From: an uncultured Opitutales bacterium
GTDB taxonomy: Bacteria; Verrucomicrobiota; Verrucomicrobiia; Opitutales; Intestinicryptomonadaceae
NCBI GenBank assembly: GCA_944389175.1
Contig: CALXLK010000007.1
Span: 1 to 64,000 of the forward strand
Direction of reading: 5' to 3'
DNA: 64,000 nucleotides
Of the stretch, positions 12,090 through 34,070 are shown piece after piece (the stretch's first letter is position 1; every line of letters starts with the position of its first letter). Under the pieces are notes generated by a model, which was given only the letters and a program-made list of their open reading frames with translations, made no database searches and was not told the DNA's origin. The position numbers and the translations under genes are program-made.

Positions 12090-12146
12090 ATTGCGAACAG
12101 ACTCGGTTGCTACTTAATATATATCGCACGGTGCAAAACTTAACCA

Positions 12147-12187
12147 CGCCCCCACGAGGAATCGAACCTCGATTTGGCGTTTAGGAA
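12147..12187 (-). repeat. 3' half of a tRNA-Arg(CCU) gene: att-like left island boundary
   Basis: The 41 bases, read on the - strand, are identical to bases 17489-17529 of the complete tRNA-Arg: anticodon loop, 3' anticodon stem, variable loop, T arm, acceptor strand and discriminator base. The sequence diverges from the tRNA upstream of the anticodon loop. A tyrosine integrase gene begins about 100 bases away. This is the expected form of one recombination junction of an element that enters tRNA genes at the anticodon loop. Confidence 0.85.
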
Positions 12188-12287: not shown

Positions 12288-13558
12288 ATGAAGAACAGAT
12301 CTCCTTCCTTTCCAAAAAAAGTTGCCGAGAAAAACCGCGAGCGCTGGGTCGTTTACTATTTCGACACAGACAAGCAAAAACGCTGGGCGCGCAGATTTTC
12401 CACCGAGGCCGAAGCGCTCGAATTTTTCCGAGAAAAAAATGTTTACGATGAGAAATTGGGCGTTGAGGCAAACCGCATTTCGCCGACAGACAGGCGCGAG
12501 CTTGTCGAGGCTAAAATGCTCTTAGCTCCCCTTCGCACAAGTTTGACAAACGCGGTATTAACCTACGTTAAACTCACCAAAGACTTGGAGACGCACGGCA
12601 TAAGTTTGAATAGGGCAATAGAAGAATACAAGGCGCTTTCCAAGCTGAAAGAACGCTCCGTAAGGCTCGATTTTGCAATAGACAGATATTGCCTATCCCT
12701 GCAAAAGAAAGAGCTTTCCGGAGAGTATTTAACGGGCGTAGAAAGAATTTTATTTAGGTTTATGGAAAGCTTTGAGCGCGACAGGATTGTCTCGCTAATT
12801 GGCGGCAAAGAAATTTTCCACTGGCTTATAAATCTCAAGAAGCGCGAATATGCCGATAGCGACAAACTTCATGTGGACGGCCGCCCGATGAGGGTTTTAA
12901 GGAAACAAGCCAAGACTTGGGCGCCTATTCAAGAAACGAGTATCGCCGAACGCTCTACTCATTTTTTAAGTTTTGCAAAATGCAGGACTGGCTCGACAAC
13001 AATCCCGTGGAGAAAGTCGAGGCTTGGAGAATCAGGGGCAAGACGCCAAAAATCTTCACGCCCGAAGAAGTGCGCAAAATTTTAGATTCCACTCCGCCTA
13101 AGAGCGAGATTCGCGCATACGTTGCAATTTCCGCCTTCACCGGCATAAGAAACGCCGAAATGCAAAGGCTTACTTGGGATAAAATCAAGCTAGAGGACAG
13201 GGAAATTATTCTCGATAGCGAAATCACAAAGACCGCTTCCAGGCGAATTGTAAAAATTCCTGAAAATCTCGCCAAGTGGCTCGAGCCGTACGTCTGGAAA
13301 CTCGGAACTAAAAAGAAGATTCTAAACAAGGGCAAGACCACCCTTATAAATAAGCTTCACGAGAGCCTCGGCAAAGGCAACTGGATAAAAAACGGCCTGC
13401 GCCATTCAGCCGCGACCTACTACCTCGCTCTGACAAAGAACGCATATCTTACCGCCGAGCAAATGGGGCACGCAGTTGACGTTCTCAAACAGAACTACAA
13501 CGGCCTTGCCCGCGAGCGCGACGCCATAAAATACTTCGAGATTCTTCCTGAAGAATAA
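12288..13558 (+). pseudogene. Tyrosine-recombinase integrase, broken by a frameshift
   Basis: Two overlapping frames give one integrase. The first (12288 to about 12890) holds the arm-type and core-binding N-terminal regions; the second (about 12900-13558) holds the catalytic domain with the first Arg in TGIRNAEMQRLTW, the Lys in RRIVKIPE, the second Arg in NGLRHSAATY (Asn in place of the usual first His), GHAVDV and the Tyr in QNYNG. The second frame has a stop at 12857-12859, so the shift must lie after it; the TTTT run at 12895-12898 is a likely slip site. It may be a sequencing error, a real mutation or programmed slippage. It lies next to the tRNA-Arg half-site and is the obvious enzyme for the island's insertion. 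Confidence 0.85.
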
Positions 13559-17389: not shown

Positions 17390-17457
17390 ATGAGTGTTAA
17401 TACTTGAAATATAGTTGACTTTCAAGCGGCCATCTGGTCTTATGACTACTTTATCCC

Positions 17458-17529
17458 GCCCCTGTAGTTCAACGGATAGAACGAGCGTTTCCTAAACGCC
17501 AAATCGAGGTTCGATTCCTCGTGGGGGCG
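17458..17529 (+). tRNA. tRNA-Arg (anticodon CCU), complete copy inside the island
   Basis: A full cloverleaf can be drawn: acceptor 17458-17464 with 17522-17528, D stem GTTC/GAAC, anticodon stem with loop TTCCTAA giving anticodon CCT at 17491-17493, T stem CGAGG/CCTCG with loop TTCGATT, and discriminator G at 17529. CCA is not encoded. The 27-43 pair is A-C, a mismatch. The 3' 41 bases are identical to the fragment at 12147-12187, and bases 17459-17494 match the fragment at 33441-33476 with one difference (position 27). It may replace the chromosomal tRNA that the insertion split, reading AGG codons. Confidence 0.9.
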
Positions 17530-17704
17530 CGGGTATGTTTTTGTTAAGCAGCATATTGCCATTTTTGCACTTGCTGCTTTTTTTGTGGGCATAATGCCGT
17601 AAGTCCCTAGTAATTGACCTAAAATCTGTCAGAAATCCAGTCTAAGCCCTTACCATTTTGGCTTAACGATATGCCCCAAATGGAAGATTAAATTTCCACA
17701 ATGG

Positions 17705-18923: not shown

Positions 18924-19880
18924 TCACTTCAAAAAGTATCCGCCATTTTTGGGCGCACCCCTAAATTCGATAAACTCGCTTAACGATTTCAAGTATCGGC
19001 TAAGCGTTCTGACGGGAATATTCAAGGCCTTTGCAATATCGTTTGTGTTTGCGCCTTGGTTGTTTCGGATAAACTCAAGCACGTCATTTACTCTGCCATT
19101 TAGTCTGCCGTTTACTCTGCCACTTTGGCTTGTTTGGTGCAGTTTTAGAGTCTTTAAAATCTCGCCAAGCATAAAATCCACGAATATTCCCGAATCGTTT
19201 TTTGCGGAGCTATCGTTAATTGCCTCATAATAATTTTGCTGATTATTATAAACCATTGTTTCCACCGGCAAATATTGAAATAATGGATTGAACTTGGATA
19301 AAATTAAAGACTGCCAAAGCCTTCCCATTCTGCCGTTCCCGTCCGCAAACGGGTGTATAAACTCAAATTCATAATGGAACACGCAGCTTTTTATAAGCGG
19401 GTGGTCTTCCGAATTTTTCAGCCAATCAAATAAATTTTCTATCAATTCCGAAACCATTTCGGCTGGCGGAGCTATGTGGACGGCTTTATCGTCGTCAAAG
19501 ACCCCGACGCCGCCCGACCTAAATTTGCCCGCTTCCGAGACGAGAGATTTCATCATTTCGGAATGCGCTTTCAACAAGTCTGATATGGAAAAAGGATCAT
19601 ATTTTTGAAAACTATCGTAAGCTTTAATCGCGTTTTTTACTTCCAAAATTTCCCTAAGAGGCGCGACAACTTTTTTCCCGTTTAAAATATCGCTAACTTG
19701 CTTTTCGGAAAGATTGTTTCCCTCTATCGCAAGCGAGGAATGAATTGTTTTTATCTTGTTGGATTTTCGCAGTCTTAGGGAGTCCTTTTCCATTAAAATC
19801 GAATGCCGTTCTAAGAGCGCGGAAATTTCGGCAATCATAGATATTGCTTTTGCGGACACTGTAAACGGCGGTTTCTTCAT
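18924..19880 (-). CDS. Fic-domain protein with class II-type inhibitory motif and C-terminal winged helix
   Basis: The 318-residue protein has the full active-site motif HPFADGNGRMGR at 176-187 and an upstream inhibitory-type motif SLAIEG (49-54, Glu53), so it should be an AMP-transferring Fic enzyme held inactive by its own N-terminal helix. The region GVFDDDKAVHIAPPAEM fits the flap that positions target peptides. A GRVNGRLNGRVN linker (254-265) formed by three 12-base repeats leads into a winged helix (about 266-318). This Fic-wHTH layout is common in mobile islands. Targets are unknown. It is monocistronic. Confidence 0.88.
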   Translation of the reverse strand: MKKPPFTVSAKAISMIAEISALLERHSILMEKDSLRLRKSNKIKTIHSSLAIEGNNLSEKQVSDILNGKKVVAPLREILEVKNAIKAYDSFQKYDPFSISDLLKAHSEMMKSLVSEAGKFRSGGVGVFDDDKAVHIAPPAEMVSELIENLFDWLKNSEDHPLIKSCVFHYEFEFIHPFADGNGRMGRLWQSLILSKFNPLFQYLPVETMVYNNQQNYYEAINDSSAKNDSGIFVDFMLGEILKTLKLHQTSQSGRVNGRLNGRVNDVLEFIRNNQGANTNDIAKALNIPVRTLSRYLKSLSEFIEFRGAPKNGGYFLK

Positions 19881-21166: not shown

Positions 21167-23926
21167 ATGCTTAACGCCTTTCAATCAAAATACATCGCGC
21201 ACAAATTGACTATTTTAGATAAAAAAAGTCAGTTATCTGTAATATCGCAAGGACTTATGGATGCGCAAGTGGATTTAAACCCGCATCAAGTAGAAGCGGC
21301 ATCATTTGTATTAAAAAATCCATTATCAAATGGCGTTCTTCTCGCCGATGAGGTGGGGTTAGGGAAAACTATAGAGGCTTCAATCTTGCTATGCCAAATG
21401 TGGGCAGAAAGGAAGCGTCATCTTTTGATAATCTGCCCAGCGGCAATCAGAGAACAATGGCGGGCAGAGTTAGAAGATAAATTTAATCTTCCTGCTGTAA
21501 TTTTAGAAAGAAAGAATTATTTGCCGAGTTTGCTTTCGTTAGATGATAGCATCATGATAATGTCATATAATTTTGCGGCAAGGATTTCAAATGACTTAGC
21601 GCACACCCCTTGGAATCTTGTTGTAATAGATGAAGCTCATAAATTGCGCAATGCATATCGCGAATCTAACAAAATTGGTCGAGCTATAAAATTGGCGCTC
21701 GATGGGCGTAAAAAAATACTACTTACAGCAACTCCTTTCCAAAATTCGTTAATGGAATTGTACGGATTAACTACAATTATAGACGAAAATATTTTTGGAG
21801 ATGAAAAATCGTTTCGGGCGCAATATTCGTCAACTGACAAACAATATACATCTTTGAGAGAAAGATTGTCTGCATATTGTAAACGAACGCTAAGAACACA
21901 GGTCGCGGAATATGTGAATTATACGAAACGGAAAGCTATAACATTCCCGTTTTATCCATCAAAGGAAGAGTTGAATTTGTTTAATTCGGTTGCGCGCTTC
22001 TTACAGGATGAAAGTGTTTATGCGATTCCTCCAAAACAACGCCATTTAATCTCCTTGGTATTGTATAAATTATTGGCTTCCTCCTCAAATGCTGTAAACT
22101 CGGCGTTTGAAACTATTCTCAAACGATTAGAAAAAATAAAAACAGATTATGCAACCGCCAAAGGCATAGATATAAATGAGCTTATTGATGACGACGAGTT
22201 AGAAGATTTTTACTGCGATGAAATTGATGATTCGGAAGAGAACCGCCCTACTTCGGAAGAAATAGATATAAAAACGCTTTGTTCTGAAATTGAGCAAATT
22301 AAAAAATTTATAGAGCTTTCAAAATCTATTAAAACCGATAAAAAGTCAGAGCAATTACTTGTCGCGCTAAAAAGCGGTTTTGAAGAACTTTCTAAAATGG
22401 GGGCGAATCAGAAAGCGTTAATCTTTACTGAAAGTCGCAAGACCCAAATGTATTTAAATGAATTTTTATCGCAAAATGGTTATGCCGGAAAGATTGTTCT
22501 TTTTCATGGCGCAAACAAGTCAATGCGAAATGAGATTCTTGAAGAATTTAAAAATAACGCCCAAATATTAATAGCGACAGAGGCTGGAGCTGAAGGCTTA
22601 AATATGCAATTCTGTTCGCTCGTTGTTAACTATGATTTACCATGGAATCCGCAAAGAATCGAACAGCGCATTGGGCGTTGCCACCGTTACGGACAGAAAT
22701 TCGATGTTGTTGTTGTAAACTTTGTCAATCAGGCAAATCCCGCCGACAAAAGGGTTTTTGACTTGTTGAGCTTGAAATTTAATCTGTTTGAAGGAGTTTT
22801 TGGTGTTTCTGATGAAATCTTAGGCGCGATAGAAGATGGCGTTGATTTTGAGCGTAAAATTTTGGCGATATATCAAACCTGCCGAACGGCTGAGGAAATA
22901 GAAGAAGCCTTTAATAAGCTCCAAGCCGAGATGGAAATTGCTATTGACGCTAAAATGAACCAGACAAAGAAAATGCTTTTGGCAGATTTTGACGCGGATG
23001 TTCACCAACGATTGCGGGTAAATTTTGATGAAACAAAAGTGATGTTGAACTCTCTCCAAAAAGCGTTTTGGGAGCTGGCGAAATCCATTCTAAATAATGA
23101 CGGCATCTTTTCTGAAAAAGACTACTCATTTGAATTAACAAATTCTAAATTAGGGAAAATCCAAAAATATTATTTCTTAACACAAGATTTAAAACAGGAG
23201 AATATTCCAGCCGTACAAGTGATACGTCTTTCCCACCCGATTGGCGAATTTATAGTAAAGGCAGCCAAACAGGCAGAAACTCCATATAAAGAGTTAACGT
23301 TTGATTTATCTAATGCCTCGCAGAAATTTTCTTATCTTGATTCCGTAAAAGAGACTTCGCCGTATGGCATTTGCAAGATTTCATTATTGCGCATTGAAAG
23401 TTTTGAAACAGAAGAATATCTTATAATTTCCGGCATAACGAATACCAATAAAGAAATTCCTTCCGAAAATATGGAACAACTCTTTATGTTGGATGTTGTT
23501 TCCGAACAAAGCGTAGACTACTATAAGAGCTTTGCTTTAGACGAGGTTGTTAATAAAAATTTAAAAGATACAAAACAGCGTTCGGAGAATCGGAATCTTG
23601 AATTTTTCAAGGAAGAAAAAGATAAGATAGAACAATTTTTGGCGGACAAACTTTATTCAGTAGAACGCGAGCTAGCCTTGGTGAAAGATCGCATTAAATC
23701 TCTTGAACGAGAAGCGAACAAAAGTGAAGATCTGTCTAGGCATGCCGTATATCAGGAAGAAATAGCTACGCTTTCAAAGCAAAAAAGAAGATTGCGCGCC
23801 AAGGTTTTCGAAGTTGAAGATGAAATCGATTTGGAACGAGCCCGCTTGATAGAAAACCTTAAAAGACGCTTGTCAAAGACGGTCGATGTTGTAGACTTAA
23901 TGGAATTTCAGTGGAAACTCGTATAA
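21167..23926 (+). CDS. SNF2/RapA-type DNA helicase/translocase of the defence operon
   Basis: A 919-residue SF2 enzyme with Walker A DEVGLGKT (Lys67), DEAH at 155-158, LLTATPFQN, and in the second lobe ATEAGAEGLNMQF and QRIEQRIGRCHRYGQ, all in SNF2/RapA style. An acidic insert (about residues 340-380) separates the lobes. The C-terminus (about 800-900) is a long coiled coil. SNF2 translocases move on double-stranded DNA without separating strands and occur in restriction-linked systems such as DISARM (DrmD). It is the first gene of a four-gene operon, 12 bases before the methyltransferase, so it probably works with Mod and Res to find or reshape invading DNA. Confidence 0.88.
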   Translation: MLNAFQSKYIAHKLTILDKKSQLSVISQGLMDAQVDLNPHQVEAASFVLKNPLSNGVLLADEVGLGKTIEASILLCQMWAERKRHLLIICPAAIREQWRAELEDKFNLPAVILERKNYLPSLLSLDDSIMIMSYNFAARISNDLAHTPWNLVVIDEAHKLRNAYRESNKIGRAIKLALDGRKKILLTATPFQNSLMELYGLTTIIDENIFGDEKSFRAQYSSTDKQYTSLRERLSAYCKRTLRTQVAEYVNYTKRKAITFPFYPSKEELNLFNSVARFLQDESVYAIPPKQRHLISLVLYKLLASSSNAVNSAFETILKRLEKIKTDYATAKGIDINELIDDDELEDFYCDEIDDSEENRPTSEEIDIKTLCSEIEQIKKFIELSKSIKTDKKSEQLLVALKSGFEELSKMGANQKALIFTESRKTQMYLNEFLSQNGYAGKIVLFHGANKSMRNEILEEFKNNAQILIATEAGAEGLNMQFCSLVVNYDLPWNPQRIEQRIGRCHRYGQKFDVVVVNFVNQANPADKRVFDLLSLKFNLFEGVFGVSDEILGAIEDGVDFERKILAIYQTCRTAEEIEEAFNKLQAEMEIAIDAKMNQTKKMLLADFDADVHQRLRVNFDETKVMLNSLQKAFWELAKSILNNDGIFSEKDYSFELTNSKLGKIQKYYFLTQDLKQENIPAVQVIRLSHPIGEFIVKAAKQAETPYKELTFDLSNASQKFSYLDSVKETSPYGICKISLLRIESFETEEYLIISGITNTNKEIPSENMEQLFMLDVVSEQSVDYYKSFALDEVVNKNLKDTKQRSENRNLEFFKEEKDKIEQFLADKLYSVERELALVKDRIKSLEREANKSEDLSRHAVYQEEIATLSKQKRRLRAKVFEVEDEIDLERARLIENLKRRLSKTVDVVDLMEFQWKLV

Positions 23927-23938
23927 GGATTTAATTCT

Positions 23939-26900
23939 ATGTCGGCTTTTGAAAATTTAAAAGACAAACTAAGGGAAATATTTCAGCTTGATAGAAACGA
24001 TTTAGATTTTGGCCTGTACCGCATAATGAATCTAAAATCGGAAGAAGTCTCAAAGTTTATTGAAGAAGATTTATTGCCGCAGGTAAAAAACGGATTAGCT
24101 TCTTATGCTGCCGAAGATTCCGTAGCCATAAAGGAAGAGTTAGATAAAACCGTCGCATCTTTGCGTGCTGCAGGGCTTCCGGAAGAGCAAATCAACGTAA
24201 CGCCCAAGGTTGTAGAATTAAACGAAAAACTGAAAGATGCCTTTTCGCCTGAAAAAGTAGAGAACGAAATTTATTCCGATTTATATAACTTCTTTAAGCG
24301 TTACTATAGCGATGGCGATTTTATGTCGTTGCGACGTTACAAAGAGGGTGTTTATGCCCTTCCGTATGAAGGCGAGGAAGTCAAATTGCATTGGGCAAAT
24401 GCTGACCAATATTATATAAAGTCTTCCGAGACGTTTTCAAATTATACTTTTAAAATTAGAGGTAAGAGAATTCGTTTTGAGGTTGTTGACGCTACAACAG
24501 AGCAAAATAACAATAAGGACGATAAAAATAGAAGATTCCGTTTATATAAGGGAACAGAGGAAGAACCTAAAAATCCTGTATCGGAAAGGAATGGTGAATT
24601 TGTTGTAGCTTTTACATATTTGGCAACTGAAGGAAATGCACCTACTCAAAAGAATATAAATGAGGAAATTTTTGCGGAGCTTTGGGCTAACCCTTTGCTG
24701 GTAGATATTGCTGAGTCACTAAAGACTACAACTTCAGATAAATCACGCCTCCCAATTTTACAAAAGTACATTAACAATTTTACGGCAAAGAATACTTTTG
24801 ATTATTTTATACATAAAGATTTGCGCGGTTTCTTAAATAGGGAGCTGGACTTCTTTATTAAGAACGAGATAATGCATCTTGACGATATTGAAAATGAACC
24901 TGCTGCAAAGGTGGAACAATATCTCGGTAAGATTAAGGTTTTACGCACGGTTGCCCATAAGATAATAGATTTTTTGGCAAGTATAGAAAACTTCCAAAAA
25001 AAGTTATGGCTAAAAAAGAAATTTGTACTGGAGACAAACTACTGCATAACCTTAGATAGAGTTCCGGAAGAATTGTATCCTGAGATTGTTGCAAATAATG
25101 CGCAGCACGATGAATGGATAAAACTTTTTGCTATAGATGAGATTAAGGGCGAAGAATTAGGAAGTGTGGCTTATTCAAATCCGCTCACTATTGAATTCTT
25201 AAAGGCAAATCCATTCCTTGTTTTAGACACACAATTCTTTTCTGCCGAATTCAAATACAAACTTCTTGCTTCTATTGACAATCTCGATAAAAACACAAAT
25301 GGTTTGTTGATTCATTCTGAGAATTTTCAGGGATTAAACCTAATGTCTGAAAAATATAAAAATCGAATACGTACTATATATATAGATCCACCTTATAATG
25401 CTCCGAAATCCACTGTCCCGTACAAAAACAACTTTAAACATTCTGCATGGTTATCATTAATGGAAAACAGGCTAATAAAGTCTATTCCATTACAAACATA
25501 CGACGCATCAATAGTTATCGCAATAGACAAGTGGGAAGAAAATTTATTACAGCGATTATTGAAAGAAAATTTTTCGGACCATGATATTGTTTCTGTAGCC
25601 ATTGAACATAATAAAAAAGGCGTACAGGGAGATCATTTTTCTTTCTCTAATGAATATGCTGTATTTTGCATTTCAAATAATCTAAAAAAATTAAAAGAAA
25701 AAAATAGAAAAGAATCGGAATGGGAATATTCGAATCTGCGAAATTGGGGAGGAGAGTCTTTAAGATCCGATGCGGCAAATTGTTTCTATCCTATATATGT
25801 TGATAATAATTTAAATATTGTAGGATTTGGAGATGTTTGTGAAGATACTTTCCATCCATCATCTGCGAATGAATACATTGAAAATAATTCTATTTTGGAA
25901 TTGGATCATGTAAATATAAATCAATTTCCGATCATAAGTATTTATCCTGTCTCAAGTGATGGAATCGAACGGAAGTGGAGATATGCCAGACAAACGATAG
26001 ATCAAATAAGAAGTAGATTAAAGGTAAAAAAAGCTCAATCTGGTGAAATCTCTATAGAAATAGCAAAAATTTCAGATCCATTCAAAACATTATGGTCTGA
26101 TCCGATTTATAATGCAGGAGATAATGGAACTACAATTATTACAGGGATGGGATTGAATTTTGATAATCCCAAATCTTATTACACAGTGGATGATTGTATA
26201 TATGCTATATCTTCACAAGAAGATATAATACTTGATTTTTTTGCGGGATCTGGAACAACTGCACATTGTGTAATAGAAAGAAACAAATTGGGTTCTAACA
26301 TGAAATATATCCTTTGTGAAATGGGGACATATTTTGACTCTGTTACAAAACCTAGAGTTGAAAAGGTTATTTATTCTAATGGTTCTATAAAAGACTATGA
26401 GAACGGTAAACCCAAATCCCGCAAAGGTTCATCGCATATGTTCAAATATGTGCGTCTTGAATCATATGAAGATTGTTTAGACAACTTAAAATATGACCGT
26501 TCAAAAGGTCAAGATGACTGGTTGGAAAAAAATCCATCCATTCGCGAAGATTACATGATTAAATATATGATGGATCTTGAAACAAAAGATTCTATCTTGG
26601 ACATCAAAAAGTTTGAAACACCATTTGATTATCAAATAAACATAACTCGCGATGGCGAAATTAAGCAAGTGAACGTAGACTTGGTAGAAACTTTCAATTT
26701 CTTAATCGGCTTAAACGTAGACCATATTCAGACATTTAAAGATATATTGGTAGTTGAAGGCGTAACTAGGGAAGGAGAAAAAACATTGGTAATTTGGCGC
26801 AATACATCAAAAACAGATAGCGATGCATTGGATTCTTGGTTCAAAAAATGTAAATATTCAACCCTAGATGCGGAGTTTGATGTCATATACGTCAATGGCG

Positions 26901-27004
26901 ATAACAATCTTGAGAATTTGCGCAGAGATGATCAAACATGGAAAGTACGCTTAATTGAAGCAGAATTTAATAAGCGCATGTTTGACGTCCAAGATGTAAA
27001 ATAG
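23939..27004 (+). CDS. Type III-like (Mod) site-specific DNA methyltransferase, large form
   Basis: The 1021-residue protein has catalytic motif DPPYN at 483-487 and the AdoMet-binding motif DFFAGSGTT at 766-774, i.e. motif IV before motif I, the beta-class order of type III Mod subunits that methylate adenine N6. About 170-250 residues between them would be the target recognition part. The roughly 450-residue N-terminal extension with charged helical sequence is far longer than in EcoP-type Mod (about 645 residues) and is probably an interaction platform. AAGGAT lies 8 bases upstream of the ATG. It should protect host DNA and guide the Res subunit encoded 10 bases downstream. Confidence 0.85.
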   Translation: MSAFENLKDKLREIFQLDRNDLDFGLYRIMNLKSEEVSKFIEEDLLPQVKNGLASYAAEDSVAIKEELDKTVASLRAAGLPEEQINVTPKVVELNEKLKDAFSPEKVENEIYSDLYNFFKRYYSDGDFMSLRRYKEGVYALPYEGEEVKLHWANADQYYIKSSETFSNYTFKIRGKRIRFEVVDATTEQNNNKDDKNRRFRLYKGTEEEPKNPVSERNGEFVVAFTYLATEGNAPTQKNINEEIFAELWANPLLVDIAESLKTTTSDKSRLPILQKYINNFTAKNTFDYFIHKDLRGFLNRELDFFIKNEIMHLDDIENEPAAKVEQYLGKIKVLRTVAHKIIDFLASIENFQKKLWLKKKFVLETNYCITLDRVPEELYPEIVANNAQHDEWIKLFAIDEIKGEELGSVAYSNPLTIEFLKANPFLVLDTQFFSAEFKYKLLASIDNLDKNTNGLLIHSENFQGLNLMSEKYKNRIRTIYIDPPYNAPKSTVPYKNNFKHSAWLSLMENRLIKSIPLQTYDASIVIAIDKWEENLLQRLLKENFSDHDIVSVAIEHNKKGVQGDHFSFSNEYAVFCISNNLKKLKEKNRKESEWEYSNLRNWGGESLRSDAANCFYPIYVDNNLNIVGFGDVCEDTFHPSSANEYIENNSILELDHVNINQFPIISIYPVSSDGIERKWRYARQTIDQIRSRLKVKKAQSGEISIEIAKISDPFKTLWSDPIYNAGDNGTTIITGMGLNFDNPKSYYTVDDCIYAISSQEDIILDFFAGSGTTAHCVIERNKLGSNMKYILCEMGTYFDSVTKPRVEKVIYSNGSIKDYENGKPKSRKGSSHMFKYVRLESYEDCLDNLKYDRSKGQDDWLEKNPSIREDYMIKYMMDLETKDSILDIKKFETPFDYQINITRDGEIKQVNVDLVETFNFLIGLNVDHIQTFKDILVVEGVTREGEKTLVIWRNTSKTDSDALDSWFKKCKYSTLDAEFDVIYVNGDNNLENLRRDDQTWKVRLIEAEFNKRMFDVQDVK

Positions 27005-27014
27005 GAGAGCTTTT

Positions 27015-30000
27015 ATGCCAAGAGCAAGAACAACTGCTACTTCAAGAAAAAGACGCTCCAAACGTCAGCAATTCCGCTTTGACCAACAATTAGTCTTAAA
27101 TCAATTCTTCTTGGAATATTTAGGCTTTTCAACTTTTGAAGAAGTAAAAACAACTTTAGCAGGAATAGAAGCAGGCGTAAACGAATCAGGTATTAGTAAT
27201 TTTTACTACGCCATAACATCATCGAGTTCGTTTCTCAATAACGCAAAAATAGATGCCGATACGTTGATACAGTATGACGAAAATATTGTTCGCCAAACAA
27301 GTCAAATGCAAGGCACTCGCTCAACGCCTATTTCGTGGTTATATTTCCAATACATATGCCTACTCTTTGTTGAAATTTATTTAGATAAATTCTTTAGCGA
27401 CAAAGAATCGTTCGTAACAGAATTAAACAATTTCCGAGCAAGTAAAATTAGTTATGTAGATATTCCAGATTATACAGAAAACGACTTGCGAAAGGTCGCG
27501 CTCTGGAATGCAACAGGCTCAGGTAAAACTCTCTTGATGCACATGAACCTTCTACAATTCCGTTATTACGCGGAGAAGTACAAGGTGGCAAATTCAATAA
27601 ATCAAACCATTCTTGTTACACCAAACGAAGGGCTTTCTCGCCAACATATTGCGGAATTTCAAAAATCTAAAATAGACGCTGATATCTTCGATAAAGATAT
27701 GTCGTCAGGTATCTTCAAAGGTAAGCGAGTTGAAGTTATAGAAGTCACAAAATTAAAAGAAGACGGCAAAGAAAAAACTGTTTCCGTAGAATCTTTTGAA
27801 GACAACAACCTAGTTTTTATTGATGAAGTCCATAAGGGTACTGGTGGCGATGAGTTTAAAAAGAATAGAGATTCTCTTTCCAAGAAAGGTTTTGCGTTCG
27901 AGTATTCCGCCACAATCGGACAAGCTGTAAAGGCGGCAAATAACGATACTATTACGAATGAATACGCAAAATCCACAATTTTTGACTACTCTTATAAGTA
28001 CTTTTATAATGACGGCTATGGCAAGGATTACCGTATCTTAAACATTTCAGATGCATCATACACCACTCATTTAGAATTGTATTTAACAGGTTGTTTGTTG
28101 GCGTATTATCAACAAATTCGCCTCTATAAAGAGTACAAAGATTTGGCAAAAAAATTTCACGTTGAAAAGCCACTTTGGATTTTTGTTGGCAGAACAGTTA
28201 CGGGGTCAAGTAAGTTAGATACGAACGATACGAGCGATATCCTAAGAATACTAAAATTCATAAAAGCGTTCTTGGAAGATGAGAATACATTTTGCGAGCA
28301 TATTAATACATTGATAAATGGGAAATCTGGCTTAATTGATAATAATGGGAAAAGTGTTTTCTCAAATGTATTTACCCATTTGCCGCCTGATATGCTAGTA
28401 AAAGAAAATGTTTATGACGACATCTTAAAAAGCGTTTTCAATGCTCCAAGTAAAGGTGCCTTGCATATTGAAGATTTGAAAGGGACTTCTGGTGAAATCG
28501 CTTTGAGAATAGGCGACAATGAACCATTCGGTGTCGTAAACGTGGGAGATTCTGCAACCCTTATAAAACTTTGCAAAGAACAATATGCTGACGATTTTGT
28601 AATTTCAGACAAAAACTTTAGCGGTTCGCTTTTTGATAATATATCGGATAATGAATCTAGTCTTAATTTGCTTGTAGGTGCTAAAAAATTTACCGAAGGG
28701 TGGAACTGCTACCGAGTAAGCACAATGGGGCTTATGAATTTAGGTAGAACAGAAGGTTCTGAAATCATTCAGCTATTTGGTAGAGGGGTACGTTTGCATG
28801 GATATAATGGCACAATGAAGCGTTTTTCTGGATTACCTGAAGGAGTAAAAAGACCATTTGAGAAAAATCAAAGATCTGTTCTCAACGCATTAGAAACTTT
28901 AAATATATTCGGAATCCGAGCCGATTATATGAAAAAGTTTAAAGAATATTTGGAGGAAGAAGGCTTGCCAACAGGTGATGATAGACGCGAATTTACAATT
29001 CCAATTATCAGAAAACTTCCCACTACAACGAAGTTAAAAATAATCCGCCTAAAAGAAGGAATGGATTTCAAAAAATCTAAGAAAATAAGCTTAGAATATG
29101 TAGACGTATTTTCTCGTTTCCCAACAATATTAGATTGGTATCCTAAAATTCAGTCTCTATTAGCCAAAGGAGTGCAAGGTGGAAATTCCACACTAATAAA
29201 AAATGAGAATAAATTAAGTAAGTCTTTATTAGCTTTCGTGGATTGGGAAGACATATACCTAAAGTTGCAAGAGTACAAAGCGGAAAAAGCGATGTATAAC
29301 TTGAATCTTAGTATTGCTGCCATCAAGAACATCTTTAAACATGACGATTGGTACACTCTGCTTATTGCTAATGAGGAATTGAATATTGCAAAATTTTCAT
29401 CACTGAAATTGATAAGCGACATCGTTCTTGCATTAGGCAAAAAATATTGCGAACGCTTCTTCCATTATCAAAAGAGCGATTGGGAAAAGGATAAACTCGA
29501 GTACGTCGAAATTACTGAGAAAGATCCTAATTTCTATGATAATTATGAAATTTCTGTAAAAGAAACAGAAACCGATTTTATCAAGAAATTAGAAGAGCTG
29601 AGCTCAATTGTAGCTTCTAAACAGCTAAGAGATTTGGATCTTGGAAGCGGTTATGCTTTCTATTTTGATAAGCATTTGTATAATCCGATTTTGTCTATAA
29701 AAAACAACGAATACATTGAAGTAAAACCAGTCTCATTAAACGAAGGCGAAAGTAAATTCATAAAAGATTTACGTGCATATTTTGAAGCGCATAAAGATAA
29801 ATTCCAAAATGCGGAATTCTATATTATGCGAAATCGTTCAAAAGCAGGAATTGGCTTCTTTGAAGAAGGCGGATTCTATCCTGATTTTATTCTCTGGTAT
29901 GTAAAAGACGAAAAACAGTATATAGCATTTGTTGATCCAAAGGGAATATATCATTTGAATCCCAAGCACCCTAAACTCAATTTCTACCGCAGAATAAAGG

Positions 30001-30632
30001 AAATTGGGAAAAATATGCGGAATCTCAATATCAAGCTAAATTCATTTATAATTTCAGTAACACCTTTTGATAAAATTAACTGGAAAGGCAATAAAGAACA
30101 GTCTTATTTCGAGAGCAAAAATATTATATTCCAAGAAGATTCTTGTTATATAGAAAAACTAATGAGAAAGGTTGTCACAAAAGATTTTAAGGAAATCTCG
30201 GAAGATAATAAGCAGCTAACGTATGACATTTTAACCTATAATCTTGGCAGAAAAACACCTTTCACTCTAGATGATATGTTTACAAATGGAGCTACTCTGC
30301 TTCTTCTATCTTCAAATAAAGAATTATTTGAAAAGGCGTTTAACACCATAATCCTAGATCAATTGCCAAAATATAACGATACGAGTAAATATTCGATCAG
30401 AGACATATATGACTATTTGGACAATAGTGGGTATATTTCCGTAAATGGCGATATGATTTCAATAAATGATTCTGCCTTTGATATTATGAAAGGATTCAGA
30501 AAGCTTCCAGAAAATGTCTATGTGCTTATGGACAAAACAAAAGCTTTAATGAAATCCATCCATGACGAGACAAAAGAATTAACAGTTGATGAAAGAATTC
30601 TAATATCCGAGCTCAACTTATGCAGAGTATAA
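27015..30632 (+). CDS. Type III-like (Res) restriction helicase-endonuclease
   Basis: A 1205-residue SF2 protein with Walker A ATGSGKT (166-172), DEVH in FIDEVHKGTGG, SATIGQA, and IIQLFGRGVRLHG as motif VI. The C-terminal part holds a PD-(D/E)xK nuclease: Pro-Asp at 955-956 in GFYPDFILW and Asp974-Pro-Lys976 in AFVDPKG. All catalytic residues are present, so it should cut. The length exceeds EcoP-type Res (about 970). AGGAGAG precedes the ATG. It overlaps the coiled-coil ATPase gene by 13 bases, tying that fourth protein to the restriction complex. Confidence 0.87.
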   Translation: MPRARTTATSRKRRSKRQQFRFDQQLVLNQFFLEYLGFSTFEEVKTTLAGIEAGVNESGISNFYYAITSSSSFLNNAKIDADTLIQYDENIVRQTSQMQGTRSTPISWLYFQYICLLFVEIYLDKFFSDKESFVTELNNFRASKISYVDIPDYTENDLRKVALWNATGSGKTLLMHMNLLQFRYYAEKYKVANSINQTILVTPNEGLSRQHIAEFQKSKIDADIFDKDMSSGIFKGKRVEVIEVTKLKEDGKEKTVSVESFEDNNLVFIDEVHKGTGGDEFKKNRDSLSKKGFAFEYSATIGQAVKAANNDTITNEYAKSTIFDYSYKYFYNDGYGKDYRILNISDASYTTHLELYLTGCLLAYYQQIRLYKEYKDLAKKFHVEKPLWIFVGRTVTGSSKLDTNDTSDILRILKFIKAFLEDENTFCEHINTLINGKSGLIDNNGKSVFSNVFTHLPPDMLVKENVYDDILKSVFNAPSKGALHIEDLKGTSGEIALRIGDNEPFGVVNVGDSATLIKLCKEQYADDFVISDKNFSGSLFDNISDNESSLNLLVGAKKFTEGWNCYRVSTMGLMNLGRTEGSEIIQLFGRGVRLHGYNGTMKRFSGLPEGVKRPFEKNQRSVLNALETLNIFGIRADYMKKFKEYLEEEGLPTGDDRREFTIPIIRKLPTTTKLKIIRLKEGMDFKKSKKISLEYVDVFSRFPTILDWYPKIQSLLAKGVQGGNSTLIKNENKLSKSLLAFVDWEDIYLKLQEYKAEKAMYNLNLSIAAIKNIFKHDDWYTLLIANEELNIAKFSSLKLISDIVLALGKKYCERFFHYQKSDWEKDKLEYVEITEKDPNFYDNYEISVKETETDFIKKLEELSSIVASKQLRDLDLGSGYAFYFDKHLYNPILSIKNNEYIEVKPVSLNEGESKFIKDLRAYFEAHKDKFQNAEFYIMRNRSKAGIGFFEEGGFYPDFILWYVKDEKQYIAFVDPKGIYHLNPKHPKLNFYRRIKEIGKNMRNLNIKLNSFIISVTPFDKINWKGNKEQSYFESKNIIFQEDSCYIEKLMRKVVTKDFKEISEDNKQLTYDILTYNLGRKTPFTLDDMFTNGATLLLLSSNKELFEKAFNTIILDQLPKYNDTSKYSIRDIYDYLDNSGYISVNGDMISINDSAFDIMKGFRKLPENVYVLMDKTKALMKSIHDETKELTVDERILISELNLCRV

Positions 30633-32659
30633 ATAAATTTGGAGATATCAAAGCACTTGCCATAAAAAAACAACCGGTTGTTTTTATAAGTAAATTGGTG
30701 ATTTATAAAAGTATTTCGCCAGTCGAAATAGTTCGTGAAATAAAATTTTCATTGGGCGTTAATATAATTTCTACACTCCATTATGACTCGAAAAACAACA
30801 ATGTTGACATAATTGGACATAGCGTAGGAAAAACCACATTATGCCGGTTCATTAGGCATATTTTAGGAGAACCAACGTATTCTAATGAAGTATCTTCTCG
30901 TTTGATTTCTAAAAAGTTTCCCAATGGCTGGATTGGAGCCGAAATTACTGTTCATAATATTTCATATGCGGTGCTTAGACATATAGGCACGGGCAACTTT
31001 CAATCTAGAATTGTTCAGAGTATTTCATTGGAATCCCTAATATCAGAGTCAAATAAGGGGCCTTCAAAATTCAATGTCTCTCAAGAATCATATATTTCAA
31101 AGTTAGGATTAAATATTCCATATTCGTTTGAGAATCCAAGATGTTTGGAAAGCACAAATTGGTTGCAAGTATTAGCTTGGTGTTCCAGAGACCAAGAATC
31201 CCGTTATAAAAGTTTATACAGTTGGCGGGATCCTGAAAGCTTCTCTAAAACACCAATTTTTTCTTCAGCAAAAGAAGGTCCTTTGTATGTAATTCGTTAT
31301 TTGCTAGGGTTTATAAACGAAGAAGAAACAAGATTAGAACGAGAAAATTTAAATATACAGAGAAGTATAGAATTTAAACGTGTTAGATTAAAAAACCTAG
31401 AAACAATTCCCAAAATACAAGCATCTCTTTTGACGAATGAATTAAAAAAGCTTATAACCAAAATTGTTCCCGATGTTAACTTTTCCGCAAAAAAAATATT
31501 AAATTCTCCAGAAGAATTACCTAACATTGAGGACTCAATTGAGAACGATATTAAAGAAGGAGGGCTATTAAATGAGGAATATAAAAAGAAATTGAATAAT
31601 ATTGGAGAAAGAAAATATAGAATAAAAGAAAGTTTAGATGTATTAGCGGAAGAATATCGTCAATTAAAAAACAAAAAAGATAAATATACGCTTTCCCTTT
31701 CAGTCAACAAGACCAAGAGAGAACAATCAAAAAGCTCCGATGATAAGTTTCTGGAAGAATATGAAGCAAAGAAAACATGCGAATGTACTCTAGGTGGATG
31801 CATTATCGAAAATTGCACTTACGTTATTGATAAAAAAGATGAAATAGACTCAAGAACTCTAAATAATAAATCTTTTAACAAATACCGCTCAGATTTAAAC
31901 GAAACCGATAAGAATATATTAAATACAATAAAAGATCTAGATTCACATATTGAACGCATTAAAGAAGAGAAGAAATCTCTGGAAGCAGAAGATCATGAAA
32001 TTACGGAGAAAAAAGTTCAAATAAGTTTGTTATGGACCCGCATTATCGAAATAATATATGAATTAAAGAAATATTCAAAAGAAATAGCTAATCCTTCTGA
32101 AAATATAGAATTTATTCAATTACAAGAAGAAATAAAAAATCTTAATATAAGCCTAGAGCGCCATAAAAATCGCTTAAAAAATCTTATTTTAATACATGAA
32201 GAGAACAAGGAAACATTAGCAAGTATATTTAATTTCTCAACAAGAAACATATTAATAGGTTCATCTTGCAATGGAACGGTTTCGTTCAAGGAAAGAAATA
32301 TAAATTTTGCAATAAAACGAAATAATTTTCTCTTTGGACAGGCAATAGAAGTCCTTTCTGTTCTTTTGGCTGATATATCTTCAATCGTGTACTCCATAAT
32401 AAATGAAAATTCGAAACATCCACTTTTCCTCATTCACGATAGCCCTAAAGAGGCCGATTTGGACGACAGGATTTATAGAAGTTTTATATCATTTATGGTG
32501 GAATTATCAAAAACTTTTGAAATACCACCTTTCCAATATATAATAACTACAACAACGCCACCTCCTTCAGATATAGATCCCAAGCTTGTTTTATCAACGG
32601 ATGAAACACTTTTAAAGGTAAACATATTTGAGGATGAAATACAATCAACGTTTTTGTAA
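30620..32659 (+). CDS. SMC/Rad50-like coiled-coil ATPase with apical cysteine cluster
   Basis: The 679-residue protein has an N-terminal P-loop GHSVGKTTL (69-77; the first Gly of the usual GxxxxGKT is shifted), a C-terminal Walker B-like LFLIHDSP (Asp607), and between them two charged coiled coils (about 235-365 and 420-545). The apex has CECTLGGCIIENC with Cys387, 389, 394 and 399, a possible zinc hook. The layout resembles DUF2326/ABC-three-component ATPases more than true SMC proteins. It overlaps the Res gene by 13 bases, so it belongs to the same system, perhaps as sensor or clamp on foreign DNA. No partner typical of Wadjet or Lamassu is present. Confidence 0.75.
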   Translation: MQSINKFGDIKALAIKKQPVVFISKLVIYKSISPVEIVREIKFSLGVNIISTLHYDSKNNNVDIIGHSVGKTTLCRFIRHILGEPTYSNEVSSRLISKKFPNGWIGAEITVHNISYAVLRHIGTGNFQSRIVQSISLESLISESNKGPSKFNVSQESYISKLGLNIPYSFENPRCLESTNWLQVLAWCSRDQESRYKSLYSWRDPESFSKTPIFSSAKEGPLYVIRYLLGFINEEETRLERENLNIQRSIEFKRVRLKNLETIPKIQASLLTNELKKLITKIVPDVNFSAKKILNSPEELPNIEDSIENDIKEGGLLNEEYKKKLNNIGERKYRIKESLDVLAEEYRQLKNKKDKYTLSLSVNKTKREQSKSSDDKFLEEYEAKKTCECTLGGCIIENCTYVIDKKDEIDSRTLNNKSFNKYRSDLNETDKNILNTIKDLDSHIERIKEEKKSLEAEDHEITEKKVQISLLWTRIIEIIYELKKYSKEIANPSENIEFIQLQEEIKNLNISLERHKNRLKNLILIHEENKETLASIFNFSTRNILIGSSCNGTVSFKERNINFAIKRNNFLFGQAIEVLSVLLADISSIVYSIINENSKHPLFLIHDSPKEADLDDRIYRSFISFMVELSKTFEIPPFQYIITTTTPPPSDIDPKLVLSTDETLLKVNIFEDEIQSTFL

Positions 32660-32729: not shown

Positions 32730-33236
32730 ATGGATACCATAACGGGACAAGGTATGATGATAAGCAAAACGAAGATTTCAACTGAGGGGTTTGAGAAGGT
32801 TGAGATTACTGCGGAGATGGCGGAGATATTCGGGCTTCCGAAGAAGGCCATTGGGAAATGGGCGGTTGTTGCTGAAGATGATGTTGAACATCGCTTAATG
32901 AAAGTTCGTTTAGACGGCTATTTTGCGGACGACAAGTACAACAATCATCAGCGCATTCCCAACAGAATTTGGGGGCAGATGTTTGGCAGGGTGCGCTGTG
33001 CGAAGTTTGAATTTTCCAAGCTATGCACGCGCAAGAAGAACTGGATATTGGCGCTTATTGACGAATTTGAAAAAATCCCCGAACTTGCCGTATCTCTGAG
33101 GAAGTTTAGCTTGGACGACATCGTTTTGCAAATTATAGACGACACGAATTCGAAGCGTCCGCAGGGCAAGGCGTACAGTTCGATTGCGAGCGCGATAACC
33201 TATTGGAAGTACAAATATGGAGACAATGGAAGATGA
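32730..33236 (+). CDS. Unrecognised island protein downstream of the defence operon
   Basis: A 168-residue soluble protein I cannot place. The N-terminus (STEGFEKVEITAEMAEIFGL) looks like a small beta/HTH-like region, the middle is basic, and the end (SSIASAITYWKYKYG) is helical. Base composition is closer to the flanking chromosome than to the AT-rich operon before it. Starts at 32730, 32754 or 32757 are possible; the last is best spaced from AAGG. It lies 70 bases after the ATPase gene and about 200 bases before the tRNA half-site, i.e. at the right edge of the island. Confidence 0.55.
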   Translation: MDTITGQGMMISKTKISTEGFEKVEITAEMAEIFGLPKKAIGKWAVVAEDDVEHRLMKVRLDGYFADDKYNNHQRIPNRIWGQMFGRVRCAKFEFSKLCTRKKNWILALIDEFEKIPELAVSLRKFSLDDIVLQIIDDTNSKRPQGKAYSSIASAITYWKYKYGDNGR

Positions 33237-33440
33237 AAATCCGTCAAAATGATTGGTCAGAATTTGGTAAGGATTTTATCGTAAAAATGCGCAAAAATAC
33301 AGGGTTTTTACCTTGTAATTATGCTTACCACATACGTAAATATGCGCAAAAGTTTTTAAAATCCGACATTTGCAACATCGCAAACATCAACAATATACAA
33401 AACCAAGAAAGCCCGAAAATGAATATAAACAGAAGGAGAT

Positions 33441-33476
33441 TAGGAAACGCCCGTTCTATCCGTTGAACTACAGGGG
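33441..33476 (-). repeat. 5' half of a tRNA-Arg(CCU) gene: att-like right island boundary
   Basis: Read on the - strand these 36 bases equal positions 2-37 of tRNA-Arg(CCU), from acceptor strand to the TTCCTA of the anticodon loop, with G instead of A at position 27 compared with the complete copy at 17458. After TTCCTA the match stops abruptly. The missing 3' half, on the same strand, lies 21.3 kb away at 12147-12187. Joined at TTCCTA the two halves form one tRNA with a perfect anticodon stem. Confidence 0.85.
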
Positions 33477-34070
33477 AGGGAAAATTAATACTCGCGATAA
33501 TGGAATTTTATGCGCATTAGTCAAACCTCATTTTATGTTGCCTATTTTTGTCGTCTCATGAAATTTTCTATATCGTTTTTCCGTTCCGTTTTTGTTTCCC
33601 CGATTGTCTTTTTCTCCGCTTCCGCACTACATACGCTGCCTCAAAAAAAAATGGCGAGATTTGTTATCAAGGTACGGAGCGCATTTAGTTCTCTTGCCAT
33701 AGCGACTTTTTTAGCGCATATGAAAGTGCTTTAAATAGGAGGGTGCAGGGCATTTGTAGGCCTTTGGCACTCTTTCGTTGTATCATAATATACGCCATTT
33801 CCCCTTACTTTGTGGTGCGCGCCATTTTTTCTATAGCACTATAAAATTTATTTCTAAGGCGCTTCTTCCCGACGCGGTGGACATGGGTGGTAATAAGGCG
33901 CTGTGCAAGGCCCTAGCGCAATCTTTAACCCGCAGATGGCTACGCGCTTTCCGATATCATAGCCTGCTTGTTAAGTAGAATAAATCTTCGAATCTATTTG
34001 GCTATGTCTGTTTCTATTCGCACTGCTTTTTTATTAGCGATATTAGTCGGCATAATTCGTTTTAAGCGCA
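33477..34070. other. Intergenic region right of the island
   Basis: About 600 bases with only short, unlikely reading frames. No RNA gene, repeat or promoter pair that I can support. Confidence 0.4.

Follow-up and report, generated by a model that had tools for sequence, protein, structure and literature searches.

In the window, by which I mean the whole 64-kb stretch of DNA that was analysed, four genes lie closely packed on the plus strand between positions 21167 and 32659. The first (HEL, 21167..23926, 919 amino acids) encodes a SNF2/RapA-like, DrmD-b-like helicase and is separated by 12 bases from the second (MOD, 23939..27004, 1021 amino acids), which encodes a type III-like adenine methyltransferase. 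After a further 10 bases follows RES (27015-30632, 1205 amino acids), a type III-like translocase-nuclease composed of a core with an SF2 translocase and a PD-(D/E)xK-type nuclease (residues 1-1050, 27015..30164) and a C-terminal extension (residues 1051-1205, 30165..30629), which is the equivalent, by position, of a domain that I call the dock. The fourth gene (30620..32659, 679 amino acids) overlaps RES by 13 bases and encodes an SMC/Rad50-like coiled-coil ATPase. Catalytic motifs are present in all four proteins: GLGKT and DEAH in HEL, DPPYN and FAGSGTT in MOD, GSGKT and PDFILW...FVDPKG (a PD...DPK nuclease) in RES, and GHSVGKTT and LIHDSPKEAD in the ATPase. The G+C content across the operon is 31-37%, versus 45-55% in most of the window. 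Reading frames, spacing, motifs and base composition all agree with a preliminary description of this DNA, which had read an AT-rich block of four intact genes as an SNF2 helicase, a type III-like Mod-Res pair and a coiled-coil ATPase with their catalytic motifs preserved.

Profile searches gave the same identities. MOD matches the PADLOC model MTase_III at 689 bits (best stretch residues 222-1015) and RES the model REase_III at 656 bits, while the Pfam domains N6_N4_Mtase (71 bits) in MOD and ResIII in RES both exceed their cut-offs. The window hence holds the gene pair of a type III restriction-modification (R-M) system, that is, a Mod with N6 adenine methyltransferase next to a Res with SF2 translocase and nuclease. 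Both proteins had been described as oversized, with extra interaction surfaces. For MOD this did not hold, as its main match reaches the end of the 1057-residue MTase_III model; for RES it did, solely through the C-terminal extension of about 155 amino acids, so that one additional domain at the end of RES remains of a supposed general enlargement. In HEL, Pfam SNF2-rel_dom (120 bits) and Helicase_C (88 bits) are found. Its closest named relative is DrmD-b, and the helicase is DrmD/RapA-like; however, HEL fails the DrmD equivalog test (602 and 277 bits versus cut-offs of 950 and 610, the former being NCBIfam DrmD_b), and weak matches labelled DrmA stem from its helicase domain. Hma was set aside as an identity for HEL, because the HmaA model matches at 1.3e-54 versus 9.6e-179 for DrmD and because Hma employs an m5C methylase.

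The operon had also been placed in a tRNA-bounded island. A minus-strand tRNA-Arg is apparently split at its anticodon loop into halves about 21 kb apart, and these are the likely island ends: the 3' half on the left (12135-12187, minus strand, 94% complementary to 17489-17541) and the 5' half on the right (33435-33484, minus strand, 90% complementary to 17451-17500). The sole intact tRNA-Arg(CCT), at 17458-17530 and in the orientation opposite to the split halves, lies within the presumed island and not at its edge, so that the tRNA boundary stands only in the form of the split gene. When congeneric relatives were searched for an unoccupied insertion site, the left flank was not found beside the right one. 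Next to the left end, a tyrosine integrase (12288-13558) is read in two overlapping frames (12288-13085 and 12917-13558); its relative in locus L131 is a single open reading frame of 420 amino acids, which points to a frameshift or a sequence error in the window. L131, a short contig from genome G788 of the same family, carries this integrase, a 3' remnant of the ATPase gene (84% identical) and a homologue (60% identical) of the open reading frame at 32730-33236, and lacks RES and the remaining operon; it is apparently a decayed version of this island in a sister genus. The 32730-33236 frame (168 amino acids, no family match) follows the ATPase gene in the window as its homologue follows the remnant in L131. 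The island further holds a Fic-family gene (18924-19880, minus strand) with a C-terminal winged helix, SoFic-like.

Within a sample of 289 genomes of the window's phylum, relatives of RES occur in 14 and relatives of the ATPase in 12. At least four further genomes (L026, L031, L032 and L108) carry the four-gene set, with the order sometimes interrupted by extra genes between the core genes, such as PDC-M25A/B-like genes between HEL and MOD in L026. The recurrence that had been predicted is thus observed, and helicase and ATPase both co-occur with mod-res elsewhere. The supposed composite system is, however, a three-gene core with an optional ATPase and not one fixed set. HEL-MOD-RES operons devoid of the ATPase gene are found at L050, L052, L054 and L055 and on IncF plasmids of Enterobacteriaceae (e.g. 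L060), and at least MOD-RES, again without the ATPase, is found in Hymenobacter and haloarchaea. HEL-MOD-RES is a stable and widespread core, mostly without the ATPase, which is an optional add-on. The window RES is no closer to its ATPase-bearing relatives (36-38% identity) than to those lacking the ATPase (32-39%). Varied accessory genes are nested between the core genes at L026, L031, L108, L054, L050 and L032, among them pairs of AAA_21 ATPases, GmrSD, Schlafen-like and DUF4276 genes.

The AlphaFold model of the ATPase (pLDDT 79, 12 sequences) comprises two ABC half-heads and a long coiled coil. Its top Foldseek matches in the PDB are YydD-YydB (9a6c, E 9e-17) and the Lamassu complex LmuACB (9hqu, E 4e-15; 4e-15 to 9e-11 over its chains), with Rad50 and SMC ranking after both. 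As modelled, then, the protein is SMC/Rad50-like, although it falls short of family cut-offs: it matches PADLOC LmuB weakly over its full length (48 bits) and Pfam DUF2326 at 15.3 bits, below the cut-off of 28.7. Sequence searches found no credible relative of the ATPase or of the dock profile among solved structures, and profile searches (PADLOC, Pfam, NCBIfam) no recognisable effector domain in the ATPase. Walker A is intact in nearly all family members; almost all of them have Ser or Gly in place of Glu directly behind the Walker B Asp. This suggests that ATP hydrolysis is slow or absent, and it recalls LmuB, for which a Glu-to-Gln change is reported (PMC10586767).

The idea that the ATPase is an add-on specific to one system did not survive, as the same family adjoins at least five other kinds of system: ARMADA type I, DISARM class 1, type I, type ISP and canonical type III. 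Most of its relatives follow a DruE/YprA-like helicase, a DpdE/DrmD-like SNF2 helicase and a DrmMI/IIG-type methylase, a layout named ARMADA type I by Bell et al. 2025 (PMC12458937). The accessible portions of that paper mention no SMC-like gene, and its main text does not contain the word SMC. The four-gene layout of ARMADA plus ATPase is present in plasmid records of Agrobacterium, Mesorhizobium, Paraburkholderia and Caballeronia. Elsewhere the ATPase gene follows HsdR-HsdM-HsdS of type I (L029), a type ISP enzyme (L114), DrmD-DrmMI with a DrmA-like gene next in DISARM class 1 (L112 and L113; L110 and L177 are similar), and, in an IMG/VR contig (L128), a canonical type III set of SNF2 helicase, DUF4391, Mod and Res. 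Phage records gave no match; viral contigs gave none with the single protein P0004 and three loci, one of them informative, with the ATPase alignment. A different SMC-like family is also associated with R-M genes: in L122 a cassette with a DUF2326 ATPase (PDC-M68B-like) lies between the HsdMS genes and an HsdR-like gene of a type I system.

In every case measured, the restriction protein directly upstream of the ATPase carries an extra C-terminal domain, the dock. Tails of ATPase-linked partners are 155-241 amino acids long, versus at most 42 in 17 out of 17 homologues lacking the ATPase. Past a fixed anchor in the core, RES tails measure 155-173 amino acids at all five loci with the ATPase and 4-7 at all nine without; ARMADA methylase tails measure 169-220 (15/15) and 5-42 (8/8), respectively, and further ATPase-bearing loci have tails of up to 241. 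Overall, Fisher's test gives p = 1.5e-13, a descriptive value given that the loci are not phylogenetically independent. In held-out tests, in which the best decoy reached about 10 bits, a profile built from RES tails only matched an ARMADA tail at 2e-22, and one built from ARMADA tails only matched RES at 6e-16, DISARM at 1.5e-23 and HsdS at 1.4e-5; these profiles failed to recover part of the ARMADA tails and the window tail. The held-out matches, with E-values put at 4e-7 to about 1e-20 overall, indicate that one homologous domain is present in the RES, ARMADA, DISARM and HsdS tails. The type ISP tail is weakly similar (E 0.002-0.003), and a subtype b links the Res of the canonical type III set in L128 with several tails from ARMADA (E 1e-25). 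Over 269 genomes the dock profile gave 11 matches, ten of which lie directly upstream of an ATPase gene. The eleventh is a stand-alone protein of 134 amino acids (L159, 8028-8432, minus strand, E 1.5e-5) beside Mu GemA, apparently within a Mu-like prophage, and might serve as a decoy competing for the ATPase.

That the ATPase is an unrelated defence gene, brought next to restriction systems by chance within defence islands, is very improbable in light of these data. Two loci do have the ATPase gene with no restriction gene upstream, L178 and L063, the latter on a conjugative plasmid with an HNH nuclease next downstream. However, in six kinds of system the gene stands directly after its partner, overlapping it or nearly so, and its complete linkage to a domain fused to that partner contradicts a chance association.

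The tail of the window RES (155 amino acids, directly before the ATPase) has the position of a dock, but is too diverged in sequence for homology to be demonstrated. It is detected by none of the dock profiles, has no Pfam or PADLOC match, and in profile, hhalign and shuffle tests scores like shuffled decoys. The tails of L023 and L024, whose ATPases are the nearest relatives of the window ATPase, likewise escape the dock profiles and score no better than shuffled decoys, and a search for bridging sequences yielded just one further close relative of L024. MAFFT aligns the window tail plausibly against docks, and its model, built from an alignment that includes canonical docks, has moderate confidence (pLDDT 71) and shows helices and a beta hairpin in a winged-helix-like arrangement. 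Matches of this model to winged-helix proteins (MarR-type, MukE) have Foldseek E-values above 0.1 and were not used as evidence. Since no profile detects the tail and the model is moderate, it is identified as a dock by where it lies, how long it is and its linkage to the ATPase; the window joins the dock-ATPase module by these and by the ATPase tree, not by tail sequence.

In that tree, the window ATPase groups with two ARMADA ATPases (support 100/100), and the other four RES-linked ATPases group with the ARMADA ATPase of L034 (98/100). A single origin of the RES-linked ATPases is rejected (AU test, p = 7.7e-94), which indicates that HEL-MOD-RES gained the ATPase at least twice; the window ATPase is a long branch, and its exact sister is less sure than this rejection. 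The tail of L034 is also the ARMADA tail most like the RES tails (2e-22), so that ATPase and dock appear to have moved together at this locus.

In the profile libraries searched, the four-gene set matches no named system, and the match to an already named type that would have counted against the preliminary reading did not appear there. A paper on BREX-related systems, in its accessible part, does not describe the set. The openly readable literature covered yielded no account in which an SMC-like ATPase is coupled to a restriction enzyme through a C-terminal domain of the enzyme, although an earlier mention of such a pairing may exist. Type III R-M systems share with the window the models and domains matched by MOD and RES; the window differs in the dedicated DrmD/RapA-like SNF2 helicase that precedes mod and in the extension of RES followed by the SMC-like ATPase. 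The main classification of ABC ATPases reportedly defined ABC-3C. Lamassu and ABC-3C resemble the window in fold and size of the ATPase, in the non-Glu residue at Walker B and in a C-terminal domain of the effector partner for docking, which is predicted on the window side. They differ by the low DUF2326 and LmuB scores given above, and the RES tail has no CTD or middle-component match. Among the PADLOC matches listed for the operon's proteins there is no LmuA or LmuC, and where those systems have a toxic effector that stands alone, the ATPase of the window is partnered by an R-M enzyme. Wadjet is not indicated either, with no Jet family (JetABCD) among the matches listed for the four proteins. 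ARMADA is recognised by a set of YprA/DruE-like helicase, BrxHII-like helicase and PglX-like methylase. ARMADA type I has the same ATPase and dock family, and shares with the window a RapA-like helicase and the presence of a methylase, but its YprA/DruE-like helicase and PglX/IIG-type methylase are absent from the window locus, where MOD matches type III models and not DrmMI or PglX. DISARM class 1 offers in DrmD the closest named helicase to HEL, and some of its loci carry the same ATPase between DrmMI and DrmA; yet HEL fails the DrmD cut-off, no DrmMI, DrmA, DrmB or DrmC is found in the four genes or the scanned flanks, and MOD is type III-like.

In type III R-M systems, host DNA is protected by methylation and unmodified DNA is cleaved. 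I consider it reasonably probable that the operon is a helicase-assisted type III-like R-M system with a portable Lamassu-like sensor tethered to its restriction complex. Counting against this reading are the window tail, which escapes every dock profile and has a model of moderate confidence, the ATPase genes of L063 and L178, which follow no restriction gene, and the weak match of the type ISP tail. MOD would mark the host DNA, and RES, assisted by the SNF2 helicase, would attack unmodified DNA. The ATPase would bind the dock on RES and thereby be built into the restriction complex. If Lamassu is a guide, it may detect DNA ends or DNA of aberrant structure, and its state on DNA could, through the dock, license or prolong the action of the nuclease. 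The effectors of Lamassu carry C-terminal domains that are thought to dock onto other components and to place the effectors under control of the SMC-like sensor (PMC10586767), and the solved structures include a state of nuclease sequestration (title of PDB 9hqu); the restriction protein would here take the place of the effector. Of an SMC-like sensor extending type III restriction, as first proposed, the ATPase and its association with the core are borne out, whereas the sensing role is drawn by analogy; likewise I infer that ATPase and dock touch physically, and in which direction control would run. In type III-like systems it is the nuclease that bears the dock, whereas in ARMADA, DISARM and type I the methylase or specificity protein bears it. 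With the subunit varying in this way, it is more likely that the complex as a whole is controlled than the nuclease active site.

The same distribution bears on another role for the ATPase, as a Rad50/SbcC-like clamp that is recruited by the dock after cleavage and holds cut phage DNA for degradation. The Rad50-like fold of the model would suit such end processing, as would the dock's place directly behind the RES nuclease domain; but in ARMADA, DISARM and type I the dock is on a methylase or specificity protein and not on a separate nuclease subunit, and Ser or Gly in place of Glu after the Walker B Asp makes strong ATP turnover doubtful, so that I regard this role as quite unlikely. Slightly less unlikely, though still improbable, is an abortive-infection backup mounted on the restriction complex, normally silent and firing when phage anti-restriction proteins block the complex. 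Proposals of this kind exist for other accessory genes inside R-M operons, Lamassu itself is believed to work by abortive infection, and HEL-MOD-RES operons do carry varied accessory genes (PDC-M25A/B in L026, GmrSD, DUF4276, Schlafen-like). However, the ATPase has no recognisable effector domain and, unlike the nested genes, is coupled to a domain that forms part of the restriction protein itself. A tested ARMADA type II system protected without abortive infection (PMC12458937); this type is not described as carrying the ATPase.

Returning to the tethered sensor, a broader proposal can be made more tentatively, with slightly less than even confidence: dock and cognate SMC/Rad50-like ATPase may form a general and hitherto undescribed plug-in module, passed between six or more kinds of restriction or restriction-like system, which would add a second, sequence-independent check of DNA ends or structure to the methylation-based discrimination of self and non-self. 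If true, this would join two large defence families that have been treated apart, methylation-based restriction and the SMC-based sensing of Lamassu and Wadjet, and the shared coupling domain could be used to find further restriction/SMC hybrids. A 2026 review (PMC12904381) lists the restriction mechanism of DISARM- and ARMADA-type systems as unknown, and the dock or the ATPase would offer a concrete handle on how these systems are controlled.
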